32,267 bases of DNA from Chloroflexota bacterium (GTDB lineage: Bacteria > Chloroflexota > UBA6077 > FW602-bin22 > JAMCYS01): positions 1-32,267 of the forward strand of contig JAMCYS010000147.1 in NCBI GenBank assembly GCA_023473795.1, given 5' to 3'. The position numbers and the translations under genes are program-made. Below the pieces are notes generated by a model, which saw only the letters and a list, made by a program, of their open reading frames with translations, did not search any database and was not told the origin of the DNA. Of the stretch, positions 8,022 through 16,136 are shown piece by piece; position 1 is the stretch's first letter; every line of letters starts with the position of its first letter.

Positions 8022-10625
8022 CTAGAGAAGACGGAGCGCCTTGGCGCGGGCGACTGCCTCGGCGCGGCTGCGCGCCCCCAGCTTGCCACAGAGGTTATGG
8101 ACGTGGCTCTTGGCTGTCCCCAGGCTGATTGTCAGCTTGCTGGCGATCTGACGATTTGACAGCCCGGCCGCCAGCAATCTGAGCACTTCAAGCTCGCGCT
8201 CGCTCGGCGGCTCCAGCAGCGACGGCGTGCCGGGTGGCCGCCGGGGACTCCCGCCGCCGGCAGCCAGAATCCTGCCCACGTACTCGGGCGATATGCCGCG
8301 CAGCGCCGCCTCGTGGAGCAGCGGCGCGAGATGGCCGCCGACGTCGGCGAACGAGCGCAGGTAGCCTTCGGGCTGCGCCCTATCAAGAGCGTCGAGGAGA
8401 AACGCCAGCCCGTCGTCCGCCTTCTCGCAGGCCACGGCCTGCAGCACGCGCACGGCAATCAGCCCGTAGCCCCAGCCGGCGGCGGAGGCCATCTCGGATC
8501 GCCGGCCCAGCTCCTCGGCGGCGCCCGACTTATCGCCCCGAGCGATCAGAAGGCGGGCCCGCGTGAGGCCGAGGAAAAGGTAGAACCCGTGCGAGTCGAC
8601 GTTCTCGCCCACCATCTCTGCCATTCGCTCAGCCGAGGAGAGGTCGCCCTGCGCGAGAGCGATTTGGACGTGACAGGCCACGCAGCGAGCCCGAGTGAGC
8701 GCCGGCACGTCGTACTCTTGCGCCAGCTGGTGACATTCTTCGATGGTGGCCATGGCAGCTGGCAGGTTGCCCTCCGCCAGTCTTAGGTGAGCCTGCATTC
8801 GATAGGCGGAGACGAGGAACTCGGAGTTGCCGCCGTGACGGCTGATGGCCATGCTCTGGCTGAGGTGCCGCCCGCACTCCTCGAGGTCGTTCCACTCGTA
8901 GTGCAGTAGCGCCAAGTCCATCTGGACCAAGGCGAGGGTTGGAGAGTGACCGCCCTGGGCCGCGATCTGAGCGAGGGAGTCGGCGGCCTGGCGTAAATGC
9001 CCTCGCGAAGCCAGCGTTCTGGCCAGGAACGTCTCCGCGGTGTCGCGAGCGTAATGGTTGGCGGACTGCCGCGCGGCGGTCAGCGCCTCGCGCAGCGTGG
9101 CTTCGGCCCTTGCCAGCTGTCCCCCGTGCCAGTACGCCAGGCCCAGGTTGGCGGCGAGAATGCCGCGCGACGACGCATCGGACTCGGGCAAGAGCGACAG
9201 AGCGCGCTCGGATAGCGCCACCATCCGGGGACCGTCACCGCGTGCCCGCGCGAGGTAGGCCCGCGCGGCGGCGATGCCGCCAACTAGCCGTGAATCCTCC
9301 TCAGCCTGGCTCTCGGCGAGGTCGAGCAGCGACTCGGCTGCCTGAAGCTGGCCGACGAGCAGTAGTGGCCAGGCATAGCCTTGGCACAGCTCCGGACTGG
9401 CCTGAACGACTGCCTCTGGCAGCCGCCGAAACCAGCCGATGAGCGTGGCAACCTCGCCCCGCCGCAGCAGGGCAGGGTACGCCTTGCCTATCAGCGCCGC
9501 CGCTCGTCCCCAGTCGCGGGCGGCCAGTGCGTGGTGTACGGCCTCGGCGTCGAATCCTTTGGCGTCATACCATTCGCTCGCCCGCCGATGCAAACCCTCC
9601 AGATCGTGCTCACCCGAGGTCTGCAGGCGGTGGCGGAGCAGATCGGCGAAGAGATGGTGGAAGCGGAACCAGTGGCGCTCTTCGTCAAGCGGTACTGTGA
9701 ACAGGTTGGTCTGCTCGAGATCCCGCAGTAACCGCGCGCTGTCGTTGCGTTCGGCAATCCAGTCGCACAGTGGAGCGCAGAAGCGGTCCAGCACCGAAGT
9801 GCGCAGTAGGAAGTCTTGAACGTCCGCGACCTGGCGCTGGAGCACCTCCTCCATCAGATAGTCGAGAACGTAGCGGTGGCTACCCGCGAACGACTGCACG
9901 AAGTGATGGCGGTCCTCACAGTCGCGCAGCGAGAGGCCGGCCAGCTGGAGACCGGCGACCCAGCCTTCTGTGCGCCGGTGCAAGGTGGCGACATCGGCGG
10001 ACGACAGGTCGAGACGCATTACTCGCCGGAGAAAGTCGGCCGTCTCGGCGACGCTGAACATCAGATCGCCTTGGCGAATCTCCAGGGCCTGGTTGCTCAC
10101 CCGCAGACGCGCCAGCGGCAGGGGCGGGTCCTCACGAGAGATAACGATCAGGTGCATCTGTTCTGGCAAGTGCTCGACGAGAAAAGCCAGCTGGTGGTGG
10201 ATAGGCAGGGAGTGTATGAGGTGATAGTCGTCGAGCACCAAGACGAATGGTCTGGCCGTGCTAGCGACATCATTCAGCAGGCTCGTCGCGACCGCCTCCG
10301 GCGTAGACGGTGGCAGCGAATGGAGCGCTGCCTGGGCCGCCTGGCCGAAGGTAGCGTCGATGCCCTGCAGCGTGGCTATGAGGTAGGCCGTGAAGCGTGC
10401 CGGGTCGTTGTCGCCATCGTCCAGATTGAGCCAGGCAAACGGCAGCCGTGCGTTGCGCAGCCATTCGCTTACAAGCGTGGTCTTCCCGCAGCCGGCCCCC
10501 GCCGAGACGACTGTCAGCCGGCCCTCGCGCGAGTGAGCTAAACACGCGAACAAGCGCGGCCGCGGTACCAGCGCGGTCCGCGTTACGGGGGCCCGCATCT
10601 TGGTTTGTAGCAGCTCGCTCGTCAC
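8022..10625 (-). CDS. LuxR-family, MalT-type ATPase transcriptional regulator
   Basis: An 867-aa STAND-type regulator. The N-terminal NTPase has Walker A GAGCGKTT (residues 43-50) and a Walker B strand FVLVLDDYHLI, then a winged-helix region, a long Ala/Leu-rich helical repeat (TPR-like) central part, and a C-terminal LuxR helix-turn-helix (SERELEVLRLLAAGLSNRQIA...GTAKSHVHNLCGKLGA). Length and order match MalT, which oligomerises on ATP and an inducer before activating transcription. GTG start follows GGGGGATC. A TATAAT box lies 25-30 nt upstream on the minus strand (10655-10650). The redox cluster lies directly downstream on the same strand and is the obvious but unproven target; the promoter of the radical SAM/DUF1464 pair lies just upstream, divergent. 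Confidence 0.92.
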   Translation of the reverse strand: MTSELLQTKMRAPVTRTALVPRPRLFACLAHSREGRLTVVSAGAGCGKTTLVSEWLRNARLPFAWLNLDDGDNDPARFTAYLIATLQGIDATFGQAAQAALHSLPPSTPEAVATSLLNDVASTARPFVLVLDDYHLIHSLPIHHQLAFLVEHLPEQMHLIVISREDPPLPLARLRVSNQALEIRQGDLMFSVAETADFLRRVMRLDLSSADVATLHRRTEGWVAGLQLAGLSLRDCEDRHHFVQSFAGSHRYVLDYLMEEVLQRQVADVQDFLLRTSVLDRFCAPLCDWIAERNDSARLLRDLEQTNLFTVPLDEERHWFRFHHLFADLLRHRLQTSGEHDLEGLHRRASEWYDAKGFDAEAVHHALAARDWGRAAALIGKAYPALLRRGEVATLIGWFRRLPEAVVQASPELCQGYAWPLLLVGQLQAAESLLDLAESQAEEDSRLVGGIAAARAYLARARGDGPRMVALSERALSLLPESDASSRGILAANLGLAYWHGGQLARAEATLREALTAARQSANHYARDTAETFLARTLASRGHLRQAADSLAQIAAQGGHSPTLALVQMDLALLHYEWNDLEECGRHLSQSMAISRHGGNSEFLVSAYRMQAHLRLAEGNLPAAMATIEECHQLAQEYDVPALTRARCVACHVQIALAQGDLSSAERMAEMVGENVDSHGFYLFLGLTRARLLIARGDKSGAAEELGRRSEMASAAGWGYGLIAVRVLQAVACEKADDGLAFLLDALDRAQPEGYLRSFADVGGHLAPLLHEAALRGISPEYVGRILAAGGGSPRRPPGTPSLLEPPSERELEVLRLLAAGLSNRQIASKLTISLGTAKSHVHNLCGKLGARSRAEAVARAKALRLL

Positions 10626-10710: not shown

Positions 10711-10739
10711 TTGACCAGCGACGACGGCTAGCTTACAAT
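10711..10739 (+). promoter_or_regulatory. Sigma70-type promoter of the radical SAM/DUF1464 unit
   Basis: TTGACC at 10711-10716 and TACAAT at 10734-10739 with a 17-nt spacer, a near-consensus pair. Transcription would begin near 10746, about 80 nt before the GTG at 10827. A small stem (AGCCCA/TGGGCT, 10747-10763) sits at the very 5' end of the predicted RNA. Confidence 0.65.
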
Positions 10740-10826
10740 CACGTCAAGCCCAAGGCGTGGGCTCCTTCTTCACCAGGGTTCTTGCTATGACAGGCGCGGG
10801 CCACCCAGGCAAGACATAACCGCAGG

Positions 10827-11849
10827 GTGTCTCGTCTGTACGAGGGAGCAAGAACTTTGGAGAGGCCCCTTCTCATCGATTGGTCCTTCACTTCACGCTG
10901 CAACCTCGCCTGCCCATTCTGCCGCGGCTACGCCACGGTTGAACTGGACCGCCAGCGAACCGTCACTCTGGCGGCCGAAATAGCCGCGCTCCGTCCCGAG
11001 CGAGTAATGGTCGAGGGGGGAGAGCCGTTCCTCCGTGCCGAGCTGCCAGAGGTGGCCGAGCTCATCGCCGGGGCTGGCATCCCACTCACCATCTTCAGCA
11101 ACGGCACCGCCGTGAGGTTCGAGTGGCTTGCCCGGCTGCGGAATCTGCCAGTCGACGTCGCGGTAAGCATCGACGCCGACGACGAGTCCGTCTACCGCCA
11201 GGTGAGACCGGGCGCCGACCTGGCCACCGTTTGGCAAACCGTGCATCGCCTGCAGGAGAGCGGCAGCCTCTCCGGCATAGTAATCACTGCCTCCGCCCTG
11301 AATGTGGCCGAGGTGCTGCCCGTCCTCCAACGAGCCCGGGCGCGTGGCGCACCCGGTGCCACTGTCATACCAATCAAGCCTTGCCCGTCCTATCAGCAGC
11401 TGCGACTCACCGCGGGGCAGAAGGCCGGCTTGTACCGTCAGATCGCTTCCTACCGCGAGGACACCGGGTACCCGATCTTCGTCGACGAACCGTTCTTCGA
11501 ACCTTGCTTCGGCGGGGGCCAAGGCGACGCACAGGGATCAGTGGCAGCTGCCGGCGCCGGCTGCATCTTTGGCAGATATCTGTTCCTGGGCGCCGACGGT
11601 AGCGTTAGCCCCTGTACCTTCGCCGATTCCGTCGCTTCGGTTGCCCGCTCTCCCCTGGCCGCAGCTTGGCAGGCGATCAGCGTGGATCCGGAGATCGTTC
11701 GCGCGCGCGACCGCAGTCAGCTCGGCGGCCACTGTGGCGTTTGCCCGGACCGCGCCCGCTGCGGGGGCTGCCGGGTTGTCTCGGCGGCGGCGAGCGGGGA
11801 TTGGGGCGCGGCCGACCCGAATTGTCCCAGAAATCAAGCGGAGGAGTAG
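10827..11849 (+). CDS. Radical SAM/SPASM-domain protein
   Basis: A 340-aa radical SAM protein. WSFTSRCNLACPFCRG carries the CxxxCxxC cluster (C25, C29, C32), followed by VMVEGGEPFLR and FSNGT. The C-terminal third has the Cys pattern expected of a SPASM/twitch auxiliary-cluster domain: CIFGRYLFLGADGSVSPCTF, then HCGVCPDRARCGGCR and a last DPNC. SPASM proteins often modify peptides or mature enzymes. The GTG start has only a weak ribosome site (CGCAGG, very close); no better in-frame start was found. The DUF1464 gene starts 3 nt after the stop, so the two form one transcription unit. No precursor peptide gene is apparent beside it. Confidence 0.87.
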   Translation: MSRLYEGARTLERPLLIDWSFTSRCNLACPFCRGYATVELDRQRTVTLAAEIAALRPERVMVEGGEPFLRAELPEVAELIAGAGIPLTIFSNGTAVRFEWLARLRNLPVDVAVSIDADDESVYRQVRPGADLATVWQTVHRLQESGSLSGIVITASALNVAEVLPVLQRARARGAPGATVIPIKPCPSYQQLRLTAGQKAGLYRQIASYREDTGYPIFVDEPFFEPCFGGGQGDAQGSVAAAGAGCIFGRYLFLGADGSVSPCTFADSVASVARSPLAAAWQAISVDPEIVRARDRSQLGGHCGVCPDRARCGGCRVVSAAASGDWGAADPNCPRNQAEE

Positions 11850-11852
11850 TTA

Positions 11853-12857
11853 GTGAGGAGCCTTGGCATCGATCCAGGCACGATGAGCTTCGACTTCTGC
11901 CTGCTCGCGGAGGACGGCTCCGTGCTGGCAGAGACATCCATACCCTCGACCGAGATCATGGCTCGGCCGCTGCGACTGGTCGACGTAGTGCGAGAACTCA
12001 GAGCCGACATTGTGGTCGGCCCTTCCGGCTACGGCGTGCCGGTCTGCACCCTTAGAGCAGCGGATGAGGCGGTGCTGCAGCGCCTGCTGCCCGCTGATGA
12101 GGGGGAGGTAGCGGTGAATGAGGGCATCCGTTCGGCGCTGAGGCTGTTGCGGCAAGAGGGAGCGCCGGTGGTGTTCACTCCCGGAGTGGTTCACCTGCCC
12201 ACTGTGCCCGAGCACCGCAAGCTGAACCGCTTTGACATGGGCACTGCCGACAAGCTCGCGGTCGCGTTCCTCGCTCTAGCGGAACGGACGCGGCGCCAGC
12301 CGGGCGGTGGGCAAGCCCAGACGTTCGTCCTGCTCGAGATTGGCTTCGGCTTCACGGCGGCGGTGGCCGTAGTCGAGGGTCGGGTCGTAGACGGCATCGG
12401 GGGCAGCATGAGCTTCGGCGGCTGCCATAGTAGTGGCTTCGTCGACGCGGAGCTGGCCTACCGGCGGGGAAAGGTGCCGTATCTCGATCTCTTTCGTTAC
12501 GGTGCCGCCGAGCTGGCCGGCGAGGCTCTCGTGGAGGATTGGCCGCCAGCAGGGCCGGCAGCCTCTGTCCTGGTTGAAAGAGCCCTGCAGACTGCCTGTG
12601 CTCTGCTACCCATAGTCGGCCCGGGACAGCCCGTTGTACTATCGGGCAGGCTTGCCGACGTTGACTGGGTTAGGGGGGCCGTGGAACGGGGGCTCGCGCC
12701 GTGGGCGGCAACGGAGACGATCGTGCGCCGGGCTGGGAGAGTCAAAGCCGCGGCCGAGGGGTCGGCGCGTGTTGGCCTCGCCTTGCTGGGTGGCGCCGAG
12801 TCCGCGCTGGCGGTTGAGATGGGCCTCGTCCCGGCCGAGCGCCTGCCGGTGCTCTAG
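11853..12857 (+). CDS. DUF1464 family ASKHA-fold protein (putative acetate/butyrate-kinase-like)
   Basis: A 334-aa protein recognised from its N-terminal LGIDPGTMSFDFCLL (an actin/sugar-kinase-type phosphate-1 loop), VVGPSGYGVPV, the strongly diagnostic VVHLPTVPEHRKLNRFDMGTADKLAVA, the phosphate-2-like VLLEIGFGFTAAVAV with GIGGSMSFGG, and the adenosine-loop-like PVVLSGRLA. This is the pattern of DUF1464, known mainly from archaea and predicted to be an acetokinase-like kinase with no established substrate. GTG start follows GGAGGAG at good spacing, 3 nt after the radical SAM gene. The pairing suggests a shared pathway, for example phosphorylating the radical SAM substrate or product. Confidence 0.8.
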   Translation: MRSLGIDPGTMSFDFCLLAEDGSVLAETSIPSTEIMARPLRLVDVVRELRADIVVGPSGYGVPVCTLRAADEAVLQRLLPADEGEVAVNEGIRSALRLLRQEGAPVVFTPGVVHLPTVPEHRKLNRFDMGTADKLAVAFLALAERTRRQPGGGQAQTFVLLEIGFGFTAAVAVVEGRVVDGIGGSMSFGGCHSSGFVDAELAYRRGKVPYLDLFRYGAAELAGEALVEDWPPAGPAASVLVERALQTACALLPIVGPGQPVVLSGRLADVDWVRGAVERGLAPWAATETIVRRAGRVKAAAEGSARVGLALLGGAESALAVEMGLVPAERLPVL

Positions 12858-12875: not shown

Positions 12876-13770
12876 CCCTGGGCTCGGCCGGCGCCTGGAG
12901 CCAGATCTCGGCGCGCGCAGAGTGAAATACGCGGTCCCCCCACCGGCCGACGTCAGCCAGTGTAGACGGGCCTCCTTCTTGAGGATCGGCCCGCCCCGCA
13001 ATGGGGCATTTGGGGAGGATCGCTTGGGCTGTTGACAGTAGGGTTCGGCGCCGCCTTCCATAGACGGCGGGTTGCCGGTCGGGGTGCCATTCTCCGTTGG
13101 CCGTCCCCGGCGCACGCTCTGCAGCGTCGAGACCACCAGCGGCGCCGACCGTTCCAAGGCACGCGCCTTACGAGCGGCGACACGTGTCGACACCGCCTCT
13201 GGCAGCACCTCCACCAGACGTACGAGCGCCAGCCTGGTTAGCGTAGCACGCGAGTCAAGACTACTGCTGGCCAGATAGCCTTGGCTTCCATTCCGGCGAG
13301 TGAGCGGGAGGCGGCAATACACTGCCTCGCGAGCGCCTGAACATAGAAGTCCTGCTCAGACAGCGCTCGCCTCTCGGCATCTGGCTCGCGCACGCCGGCG
13401 GGCCTTGCTGCCAGAGGTCGACCCTCTCGTGGCGGCCGTCGACCAGGCTGCCGCGGGCGGCACTAGCGGAGGAAGGGAAGCGGCCGCTGTTCTACCGCTC
13501 GCGTCGACTGTAGACCACGCGGCCGGATGGTTCTACGGAATCTGTTCGACGCCGGGGCACGCTACCCGGATCAGTCCACCTAGGGCCAGTCACCTGTGGG
13601 AGCCAGGGCGAAATCGTTCTCCGGTTGGAGTTTCAACCTGGTAGAATTGGCGCACTCTGGCATGGCGGCCGGCCGAACAGAAGCGCTCCGCGGCAACGTT
13701 GCCTTGATTTGGCTTGACGGCTTCTCGCCAAGTGGCCGGCGACCGCGGCGAGGCAAGAGGAGGGTATCCC
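12876..13770. other. Gap without a convincing gene
   Basis: About 900 nt. Long frames exist on both strands but show no recognisable domain. A minus-strand frame in the 13.2-13.5 kb area gives a plausible-looking ending (LSEQDFYVQALARQCIAA...) that I cannot assign; it may be a gene relic. A GGAGGG ribosome site at the right edge belongs to the next gene. Confidence 0.5.
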
Positions 13771-15036
13771 GTGACTACCAGAATAGCACTGCTCACGCCC
13801 GGTCTCTCCGCGGACAGGGGCGCCGCGGTGGCATCGCTTCTGGCTGAGAGGTTTGGCGCTGAGATCGAGATCGAGCAACTCGACGCCGAGAGCGACGAGT
13901 ACCGCGCGCAGACCGTGAAGGCGCTGGCCTCAGACCGCTTCGCGGTAATCCTTTCCTCGGTTGCCCGCATCGACCCCCACGTGCTGCCGCAGGCCAAGGC
14001 ACCGGTGATCGTCGTGTCGCTGGCCGATGCCGTAGTTGGCAGAGCCGCCGACGTGGTGGCCACCCTGCGCCGGCTGGGGCTGAACGCCTCCCTCGCCGTC
14101 TCCTGGGACGATGCCGTCGCGCGGGTAAGGGACATCCTCGGAACGCCCATCCTGGAAGGCAAGCGCGTGCTTATCTTCGCCGAGCCGTTCGACTCGGCCA
14201 CCCATCCCGCGCCCAACCTCACTTACGAGTACATCAAAGGTCGCACGGGCGTGGACGTGCAGTATCGCCCGGTGACCGAGCTCGCCAAGGCGCTGGGCGA
14301 CGTGGATGAAGCCCGGGCGCGAGCCGAGATGGAGCGCTGGCTGGCCGGCGCCAGTGAAGGCCTTGAACCCTCGTCGGCGACCGTTCTGGAGTGCAGCAAG
14401 CTCTACCTCGCGCTCAAGGATTTCGTCGAGAGGGAGAACCTGGCGGGGGTATCGCTTGACTGCGTGCGCCACACCCGCGAGGGCAAGCCCGCCCTGCCGC
14501 ATCCCTGCCTGGCCTTCTCGCGGCTGCGCGACGAGGGCGTGGCCGCACCCTGCGAAGCGGACGTGTGGTCCATGCTCTCCGAGCTGCTCCTAGAAGGGGT
14601 GGCGGGCAAGCCCGCCTTCATGGGCAACGTCGGCGAGGTGGACCTAGCCCGGGGCACGATGAGCCTTCTGCACTGCGTGGTGCCCCTGCGCCTGGTAGGC
14701 TACGGGACCCAGCCCGTCTCCTATGGGCTGCGGCACTATCACGATCTTGGCAGGGGTGTTTCTCTGGAGGTCGCCTTCCCCAGCGATACCGAGGTGACGC
14801 TGGGGCAATTCGCCAAGGACCTCCGGACCTTCAGCATCTGGCCGGGCACCATCGTGGACACGGGGTCGGGTGCCTGCCGCAGCCGGGCGACGATTCGCAT
14901 ACCTGACTCTGAGCGCTTCCTCCGCAGTCTGCCCAGCTGTCACTATGTGATGGTCTACGGTCGATATGCGTCGGAGATCGCCGGCATCCTGGCGCGTTTG
15001 AACGTTCAGACCGTGGGGCCGATGCTCTACCAGTAA
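13771..15036 (+). CDS. L-fucose/L-arabinose isomerase-like protein
   Basis: A 421-aa protein of the FucI/AraA-like sugar isomerase group. An N-terminal alpha/beta domain (TRIALLTPGLSADRG) is followed by a middle domain with a helix pattern SSATVLECSKLYLALKDFVERENLAGVSLDCV and LPHPCLAFSRLRDEGVAAPCEADVWSMLSELLLEGVAGKPAFMGNV, which holds the acidic residues that bind the catalytic metal in this fold. A C-terminal beta domain follows (YGLRHYHDLGRGVSLEVAFPSD). GTG 13771 is chosen because GGAGGG lies 8 nt upstream. It is followed by an alcohol dehydrogenase, which suggests a sugar or polyol catabolic pair. Many family members are not fucose isomerases, so the substrate is unknown. Confidence 0.75.
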   Translation: MTTRIALLTPGLSADRGAAVASLLAERFGAEIEIEQLDAESDEYRAQTVKALASDRFAVILSSVARIDPHVLPQAKAPVIVVSLADAVVGRAADVVATLRRLGLNASLAVSWDDAVARVRDILGTPILEGKRVLIFAEPFDSATHPAPNLTYEYIKGRTGVDVQYRPVTELAKALGDVDEARARAEMERWLAGASEGLEPSSATVLECSKLYLALKDFVERENLAGVSLDCVRHTREGKPALPHPCLAFSRLRDEGVAAPCEADVWSMLSELLLEGVAGKPAFMGNVGEVDLARGTMSLLHCVVPLRLVGYGTQPVSYGLRHYHDLGRGVSLEVAFPSDTEVTLGQFAKDLRTFSIWPGTIVDTGSGACRSRATIRIPDSERFLRSLPSCHYVMVYGRYASEIAGILARLNVQTVGPMLYQ

Positions 15037-15075
15037 GGCAGACTGTTTTCGCGAGCGGCCGAGATGGTCGCAGAG

Positions 15076-15103
15076 GGCCCTCACTGCGGAAAGAGTGAGG
15101 GCC
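15076..15103 (+). repeat. 10-bp hairpin between the isomerase and dehydrogenase genes
   Basis: GGCCCTCACT at 15076-15085 and its exact complement at 15094-15103 with an 8-nt loop. It lies 40 nt after one stop and 25 nt before the next start. No T-run follows; it may modulate expression between the two genes. Confidence 0.5.
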
Positions 15104-15128
15104 GGTTCAACCAATGAGGAGAGTGAGA

Positions 15129-16136
15129 ATGCGCGGCGCGGTCTTCTATGGCAAGAACGACCTGAGGGTCGAGGATATGCCGTTGCCACAACCGGTGGCG
15201 GGCGAGGTCCTCATCAAGATTCAGGTCTGCGGCGCCTGCCACACAGACCTGGCGATCCTGGAAGGCGCCTACCCAGTGCGCAGCCTGCCCATCACTATAG
15301 GGCACGAGTATGCGGGCACGGTGGTCGAGGTTGGGGAGGGCGTCAGCAGCGTGAGATCGGGCGACAACGTCACGGTGCTAGTTGCTGCCGGCTGCGGTCA
15401 CTGCTACCTGTGCCGACGGGGCTTGGAACACCTCTGCCCCAATCCAGCCCCCCGGCGTGGCGGCTATATGGAATACGCCGCCGTGCCCGAGAGGCAGGTG
15501 TACAAGCTGCCCCAGGGAGTGTCCGCGCTGGCGGGCTCAATGTCGGAACCGGTGGGCGTCTGCCTGCACGCGGTGGAGAGGGCCCGGCTGTCCCCAGGCG
15601 ATACGGTCGTGGTAATCGGGGCAGGGCCGATCGGCCTGACCGTCCTGCAAGTGGCACGCCTGGCCGGGGCAAAGACCGTCATCCTCTCCGAACCCAACGA
15701 CTACCGGCGCGAACTCGGCCGCAAACTCGGGGCAGCGTTGGTGGTCGACCCCCGTCGAGAGGGCCTGGCCGCGGCGGTTGCCGAAGCGACCGAGGGCGTG
15801 GGGGCGGACAGCGTCCTGGAGACCGTGGGCCTTGTGCCTACACTGGAGGAGTGCCCGCGTCTCGTGCGCAAGGGCGGCACGGCAGTGATCGTGGGAGTGA
15901 GCGCGCAGGAGGCCACAGCCCGTTACAATCCGTTCGACCTATTCTATCGTGAGGTGGCCATCGCGGGCACGATAGGCGTGGGGCAGCAAATGGCACGAGC
16001 CGTGAGCCTGTTGCCCGAACTGGAAATGGAGGGGCTTTTCAGTCACGGTTTCGAGTTGGCGGACGTTCGCCGGGCCATCGAGCATCGGCGCGGCGGGGAA
16101 GGACTCAAGAGCTACGTGCGGCTGAACGGTGCTTGA
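15129..16136 (+). CDS. Zinc-dependent medium-chain alcohol/polyol dehydrogenase
   Basis: A 335-aa MDR-superfamily enzyme, complete unlike the fragment at the left edge. CGACHTD (catalytic Cys), GHEYAGTV (catalytic His/Glu), the structural-zinc lobe CGHCYLCRRGLEHLC, and the NAD(P) site VVVIGAGPIGLTVLQVARLAGA are all present; an acidic residue after the next strand (LSEPN) suggests NAD. ATG 15129 is chosen because GAGGAG lies about 9 nt upstream; an ATG 15 nt earlier lacks such a site. It probably oxidises or reduces a polyol or ketose linked with the isomerase-like protein upstream. Confidence 0.88.
   Translation: MRGAVFYGKNDLRVEDMPLPQPVAGEVLIKIQVCGACHTDLAILEGAYPVRSLPITIGHEYAGTVVEVGEGVSSVRSGDNVTVLVAAGCGHCYLCRRGLEHLCPNPAPRRGGYMEYAAVPERQVYKLPQGVSALAGSMSEPVGVCLHAVERARLSPGDTVVVIGAGPIGLTVLQVARLAGAKTVILSEPNDYRRELGRKLGAALVVDPRREGLAAAVAEATEGVGADSVLETVGLVPTLEECPRLVRKGGTAVIVGVSAQEATARYNPFDLFYREVAIAGTIGVGQQMARAVSLLPELEMEGLFSHGFELADVRRAIEHRRGGEGLKSYVRLNGA

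Follow-up and report, generated by a model that had tools for sequence, protein, structure and literature searches.

Described systems closest to this locus

Many SPASM-type radical SAM enzymes mature peptides or proteins. Besides kinases, the ASKHA proteins include the activators of 2-hydroxyacyl-CoA dehydratases. In the CitG/CitX logic, transfer of a triphosphoribosyl group is followed by transfer to an acceptor. In the synthesis of methanopterin, the RFAP synthase step commits p-aminobenzoate to this pathway (PMC6787355), and the roles of the genes in bacterial H4MPT/methylofuran clusters (mtdB, orfs, fhc) have been covered in a paper that does not mention DUF1464 (PMC8141765). The open-access literature searched contained no mention of the terms DUF1464 and COG2441, and no description of a radical SAM-DUF1464 gene pair was found in the literature searched.

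A two-gene unit

The window (the whole analysed stretch of 32 267 nucleotides) contains two open reading frames on the plus strand, separated by a gap of 3 nt, that encode a radical SAM/SPASM protein and a DUF1464 protein. This is the arrangement given in the sequence-only reading of this DNA, and the near-consensus promoter that it placed ahead of the genes is present as a sequence pattern (1 site observed versus 0.2 expected in shuffles). The features are as follows.

10711..10739, plus strand: promoter-like site TTGACC-17-TACAAT, found by pattern scan with 10/12 matches
10827-11849, plus strand: longest open reading frame of the radical SAM/SPASM protein (PF04055), 340 amino acids from the GTG at 10827
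10842..10848, plus strand: Shine-Dalgarno-like GAGGGAG, preceding the TTG at 10857
10857..11849, plus strand: likelier extent of the radical SAM/SPASM enzyme, with a TTG start at 10857, from the alignment of homologues
11853..12857, plus strand: DUF1464 (PF07318) ASKHA-like protein, 334 amino acids, E = 8.8e-71

The true start of the radical SAM gene is probably the TTG at 10857 rather than the GTG at 10827, because the homologues, which begin with ‘M-NNPYMIDW', align there and the ribosome-binding site is better; the protein would then consist of 330 amino acids. The DUF1464 gene is the sole copy in the window's assembly. A MalT-like LuxR regulator (8022-10625, minus strand) is encoded divergently, directly upstream of the pair, and is absent from the other paired loci. 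Downstream, the region 13714-16136 combines a weak match to the SftI sulfoquinovose isomerase with a zinc alcohol dehydrogenase, which suggests sugar catabolism without relation to the pair.

Recurrence and co-divergence of the pair

When GTDB genomes were scanned with the DUF1464 protein of the window, 16 loci were obtained, 15 of which (2 of them cut by a contig end) have the radical SAM gene upstream on the same strand. Together with the window, two more genomes of its phylum, the archaeon G571 and two genomes of the Acidobacteriota phylum, these make up 21 paired loci with the radical SAM gene located directly 5' of DUF1464; they represent no fewer than six phyla of bacteria and archaea. 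The genomes include Dehalococcoidia, WOR-3, Zixibacteria, Aminicenantes, Deltaproteobacteria, Acidobacteriota and Euryarchaeota. The two genes overlap or are separated by at most 24 nt in 18 of the 21 loci, with a 4-nt overlap in ten, and lie 77, 130 and 400 nt apart in the other three. In the window's phylum, which is probably Chloroflexota, exactly 3 of 400 genomes contain the radical SAM orthologue (418-520 bits, the next-best score being 186 bits), in each case adjoining DUF1464. Comparison of the neighbours of the paired loci identified no third conserved gene beside the pair, apart from occasional two-locus matches, mainly among close relatives.

The two proteins have diverged in concert. 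Their pairwise identities correlate with r = 0.97 across 17 loci and with 0.78 within the 13-member core clade; in both cases, 0 of 2000 permutations gave a value as high. A chance adjacency devoid of a functional link is extremely improbable, given the 21 loci in at least six phyla with differing neighbours, the co-divergence and the radical SAM orthologue never being seen without DUF1464; recurrence, phylum-wide co-occurrence and co-divergence jointly refute it. The pairing highlighted in the sequence-only reading is thus not confined to this genome but is well supported as genuine and widespread.

In the unrooted tree, 18 of the 19 paired DUF1464 proteins fall on one side of a branch with support 97/96, and the window's copy is divergent, sitting on a long branch with 30-39% identity to the others. 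The DUF1464 of G571 lies outside the main paired group and may reflect either a separate pairing event or early branching. Because the core paired clade is shallow and poorly resolved across phyla, with an archaeon (L011) inside it, the tree suggests that the pair moved horizontally as a unit.

The radical SAM protein

The protein belongs to the radical SAM superfamily: the match to PF04055 scores 66.4 bits against a cut-off of 29.5 (E = 4.6e-18), and the CX3CX2C motif (C25, C29, C32) is invariant in 16 aligned homologues. A SPASM region is indicated by the seven-cysteine pattern C246-X11-G-X4-C263, C303-X2-C306-X5-C312-X2-C315, C333, which is likewise invariant in 16 homologues, as are, among the homologues, the motifs KPC and DEPFF. 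The highest family scores are 91.5 bits for AhbD, 77.4 for GeoRSP and 75.3 for NirJ2; the protein falls outside the AhbD, NirJ, GeoRSP and MftC equivalogs, with the best score at 91.5 bits versus a cut-off of 500, and no NCBIfam equivalog scores above its cut-off for either member of the pair. The orthologues constitute an undescribed radical SAM/SPASM subfamily that has a constant kinase-fold partner and has apparently been transferred across bacteria and archaea.

Among solved sequences, PqqE is the closest. The model resembles peptide-type SPASM enzymes and viperin-like ones to about the same degree, and the substrate class is therefore not fixed by structure. The nearest solved structures to the model or sequence, namely SuiB, PqqE, SkfB, a sactipeptide thioether enzyme and anSME, are mostly modifiers of peptides or proteins, as would be expected if the pair matured a peptide or protein encoded elsewhere, with DUF1464 phosphorylating or escorting that substrate. 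However, the AhbD/NirJ and viperin-type matches fit small-molecule substrates equally well, no small open reading frame is common to the surroundings of the pair (within 1 kb, 14 loci, E < 0.01), so that this search near the pair found no RiPP precursor gene beside the maturase, no other neighbour recurs there, and unpaired DUF1464 is linked to cofactor genes; we consider a peptide or protein substrate unlikely.

The DUF1464 protein

The assignment to DUF1464 is clear from its Pfam score (PF07318, 239.2 bits versus a gathering threshold of 23.5), and a search of the PDB found no sequence relatives. A Foldseek search with the predicted model (mean pLDDT 66.7) retrieved butyrate, acetate and ROK kinases (best E = 1.5e-10, TM about 0.5; 485 matches at E <= 0.001), so that the protein is predicted to adopt an ASKHA kinase fold, in agreement with the sequence-only reading. 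By sequence, membership in the acetate/butyrate kinase family is not supported: hhalign comparison with Escherichia coli AckA is not significant, and a Pfam scan produced no further family at E up to 5.

Comparison of 20 paired and 32 unpaired DUF1464 proteins identified 29 common positions that include all putative active-site acids, with D7, G9, PSG, D128-GT-DK, E162, D198 and E200 among the invariants, whereas only six residues are specific to the paired clade. Because the putative active-site residues are common, the paired and unpaired forms can be expected to catalyse the same kind of reaction. By analogy with other ASKHA proteins, the conserved DPGT, EXG and SGR segments are the putative places of ATP binding.

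Instead of acting as a kinase, DUF1464 could use ATP to activate or switch its partner, akin to the activators of 2-hydroxyacyl-CoA dehydratases. The ASKHA fold and the presence of a dehydratase activator (4eht) among the Foldseek matches would fit this role, as would the observation that the window-type radical SAM protein was never seen unaccompanied by DUF1464. Nevertheless, the kinases outscore the activator in Foldseek, DUF1464 lacks invariant cysteines that could hold an iron-sulfur cluster, and the DUF1464-only genomes lack the window-type enzyme, making such a role improbable.

DUF1464 without the radical SAM enzyme

DUF1464 is mostly archaeal, as the sequence-only reading stated: it is present in 44 of 151 genomes of the phylum of the Nitrososphaerota locus L013, compared with strong matches in about 5 of 400 and 6 of 396 genomes in two bacterial phyla. 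This distribution makes an archaeal origin of the family likely, short of proof from the tree, which is unrooted. Whole-genome searches of 27 DUF1464-only genomes (25 of them archaeal) found no radical SAM orthologue, the best score being 179 bits versus 390-575 bits for the true partners; a constant requirement of DUF1464 for a window-type enzyme elsewhere in the genome is thereby ruled out. The alternative raised in the sequence-only reading, that DUF1464 has unrelated neighbours throughout, holds in part: the radical SAM gene is often missing, yet many of the other neighbours are pterin or C1-cofactor genes.

Among 40 loci, DUF1464 is accompanied by a GHMP protein of the RFAP synthase family in 12, by a CitG-like protein in 7 and by a DUF447-like protein in 5. 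In L110, genes for an MptE-like protein, PTPS, an MptA-like GTP cyclohydrolase and DUF1464 are consecutive; L111 combines PTPS, GCHY-1 and DUF1464; and an MptD-type dihydroneopterin aldolase is encoded close to DUF1464 in L092 and L112. The latter locus also encodes a DmrX-like flavoprotein (203 bits to TIGR02700, below the cut-off of 251), with a similar protein in L109. At some archaeal loci, no neighbour of the pterin or methanopterin type was seen.

The GHMP protein beside archaeal DUF1464 and DUF447 is a divergent member of the RFAP synthase family in L097 (4289-5260), L101, L108 and L125, and G432, which has a GHMP protein beside DUF1464, also encodes, at another place, an RFAP synthase with a higher score. 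DUF1464 is also present in Sulfolobus acidocaldarius. In the Sulfolobales-like loci L088, L099, L104 and L105, DUF1464 is part of a conserved run with a nucleotidyltransferase-fold protein, a CitG-like protein and a small metallophosphoesterase, with CoaBC close by. This run resembles the CitG/CitX logic and, by that analogy, could serve to build the ribosyl-phosphate tail of a cofactor resembling methanopterin. A distant DUF1464-like protein, also unaccompanied by the radical SAM enzyme, is found in large genomes that belong to a single family (f30) of the window's phylum (L022-L041); at several of these loci, its gene is flanked by those for a GAF-type regulator and a membrane protein. These matches are many and weak, most spanning only the first half or the middle of the DUF1464 family.

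Unpaired DUF1464 of bacteria is found in C1 clusters. In G002, of the window's phylum (L117:2002-8778), the consecutive genes encode an MtdB-like protein, DUF1464, an ATP-grasp protein, and proteins of formylmethanofuran dehydrogenase, namely an FwdD-like protein, FwdB (525 bits) and an FwdA-like protein (called by eye only). In G718, of the Acidobacteriota phylum (L202:6777-11538), a gene resembling that of dihydropteroate synthase (167 bits to TIGR00284, whose cut-off is 257; DUF6513 above cut-off) is followed by MtdB, DUF1464 and ATP-grasp; the gene order in G759 is identical. G015 contains fragments of MtdB and DUF1464, then ATP-grasp, and G746 contains DUF1464 and ATP-grasp. Altogether, the 11 assessable strong bacterial DUF1464 genes from the two phylum surveys are all either paired with the radical SAM gene or part of a C1 cluster (3 and 2, respectively, in one phylum, 3 and 3 in the other). 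Bacterial H4MPT/methanofuran clusters thus appear to include DUF1464 as a component that has gone undescribed. A role in methanofuran synthesis, considered because of the ATP-grasp neighbour, was not adopted because pterins are favoured by the archaeal operons.

Cofactor pathways in genomes with the pair

Of 17 pair genomes, only G571 has an RFAP synthase (TIGR00144) above cut-off, versus 7 of 9 DUF1464-only genomes tested, and CitG is found in 0 of 17 versus 7 of 7 DUF1464-only archaea tested, with the qualification that many of the genomes are incomplete assemblies, in which the absence of a single gene is weak evidence. Searches of the window's own genome (G000) likewise found neither RFAP synthase, the marker of the H4MPT pathway, nor CitG. 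Judging by gene content, the pair genomes, with the exception of G571, lack methanopterin synthesis by the known route. FolK, in contrast, is present in every one of the 17 pair genomes, the archaeal G407 and G571 among them, versus 1 of 11 DUF1464-only archaea. The carriers of the pair appear to make folate rather than methanopterin, the weight of this conclusion falling mostly on G407 and G571, given that folate-making is common among bacteria; FolK occurs in most bacteria and carries little weight there. A role of the pair as a substitute for a missing FolK is ruled out by the same count. The idea that the pair might stand in for PabB in making p-aminobenzoate was examined with TIGR00553, for which no PabB above cut-off was detected in 30 genomes; the matches are probably in part TrpE, and 11 of the 17 pair genomes have no match. 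No pterin or folate neighbour recurs at the paired loci.

A possible function of the pair

Our tentative preference, held at less than even confidence, is for a self-contained two-enzyme operon that acts on one small molecule, with DUF1464 as the phosphotransferase, probably in pterin/C1-carrier metabolism. The operon would have spread horizontally as a self-contained unit. The radical SAM/SPASM enzyme would generate 5'-deoxyadenosyl radicals and modify the small molecule, and DUF1464, binding ATP in a cleft like that of acetate and butyrate kinases, would phosphorylate, and thereby activate, this molecule, either ahead of the radical step or following it. The substrate would most likely be an intermediate common to methanopterin and folate synthesis, at the level of a pterin or p-aminobenzoate, because unpaired DUF1464 is often found in pterin/H4MPT clusters, the carriers of the pair appear to make folate and the putative active-site residues are common; the product would be a modified C1 carrier or a related cofactor. 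The identity of the substrate is the weakest step of the proposal. The methanopterin link, overlooked in the sequence-only reading, is the best clue to function.

Several observations count against the proposal: RFAP synthase (except in G571) and CitG are missing from the pair genomes, the paired loci are devoid of recurrent pterin or folate genes, and DUF1464 has no significant sequence link to AckA, its model being of limited confidence (pLDDT 66.7). The first of these, along with the varying neighbours of the paired loci and the six residues specific to the paired clade, would be explained if the paired DUF1464 had been recruited to an unrelated pathway (e.g. for a sugar or carboxylate natural product), so that the pterin context of the other family members would be uninformative. 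Such recruitment appears doubtful because the 29 positions, including all putative active-site residues, are common to both forms.

DUF1464 is, then, a good candidate for an enzyme of pterin/C1-carrier cofactors. A narrower version of the preferred reading, in which folate-makers use a new radical SAM/ASKHA pair to produce an alternative or modified C1 carrier of the pterin type (or its aryl/pterin precursor), the DUF1464 of the pair deriving from an undescribed archaeal methanopterin enzyme, is rather unlikely in all its specifics. Either way, an uncharacterised domain gains a testable hypothesis: DUF1464 may carry out a so far unassigned step of pterin (methanopterin) synthesis in archaea and bacteria.

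Comparison with known systems

The radical SAM protein shares CX3CX2C, the seven-cysteine SPASM region and weak family matches with the AhbD, NirJ, GeoRSP and PqqE-type enzymes, but its scores are far below the AhbD/NirJ/GeoRSP cut-offs (400-500 bits), the last cysteine spacing is X2 instead of the usual X3, and its own KPC and DEPFF motifs, together with the constant pairing with DUF1464, set it apart. DUF1464 has a predicted fold in common with acetate/butyrate and ROK sugar kinases (E about 1e-10, TM about 0.5) but, unlike a member of the acetate kinase family, shows no significant profile similarity to AckA, the confidence of the model being moderate. In the bacterial H4MPT/methylofuran C1 clusters, the unpaired DUF1464 lies inside and the paired DUF1464 outside. 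The archaeal DUF1464 proteins of Thermoproteota and Nitrososphaerota belong to the same family as the window's protein over almost the full length and have the same invariant residues; in contrast to it, they are often encoded among pterin/methanopterin genes, in genomes that, where tested, lack the window-type radical SAM enzyme.
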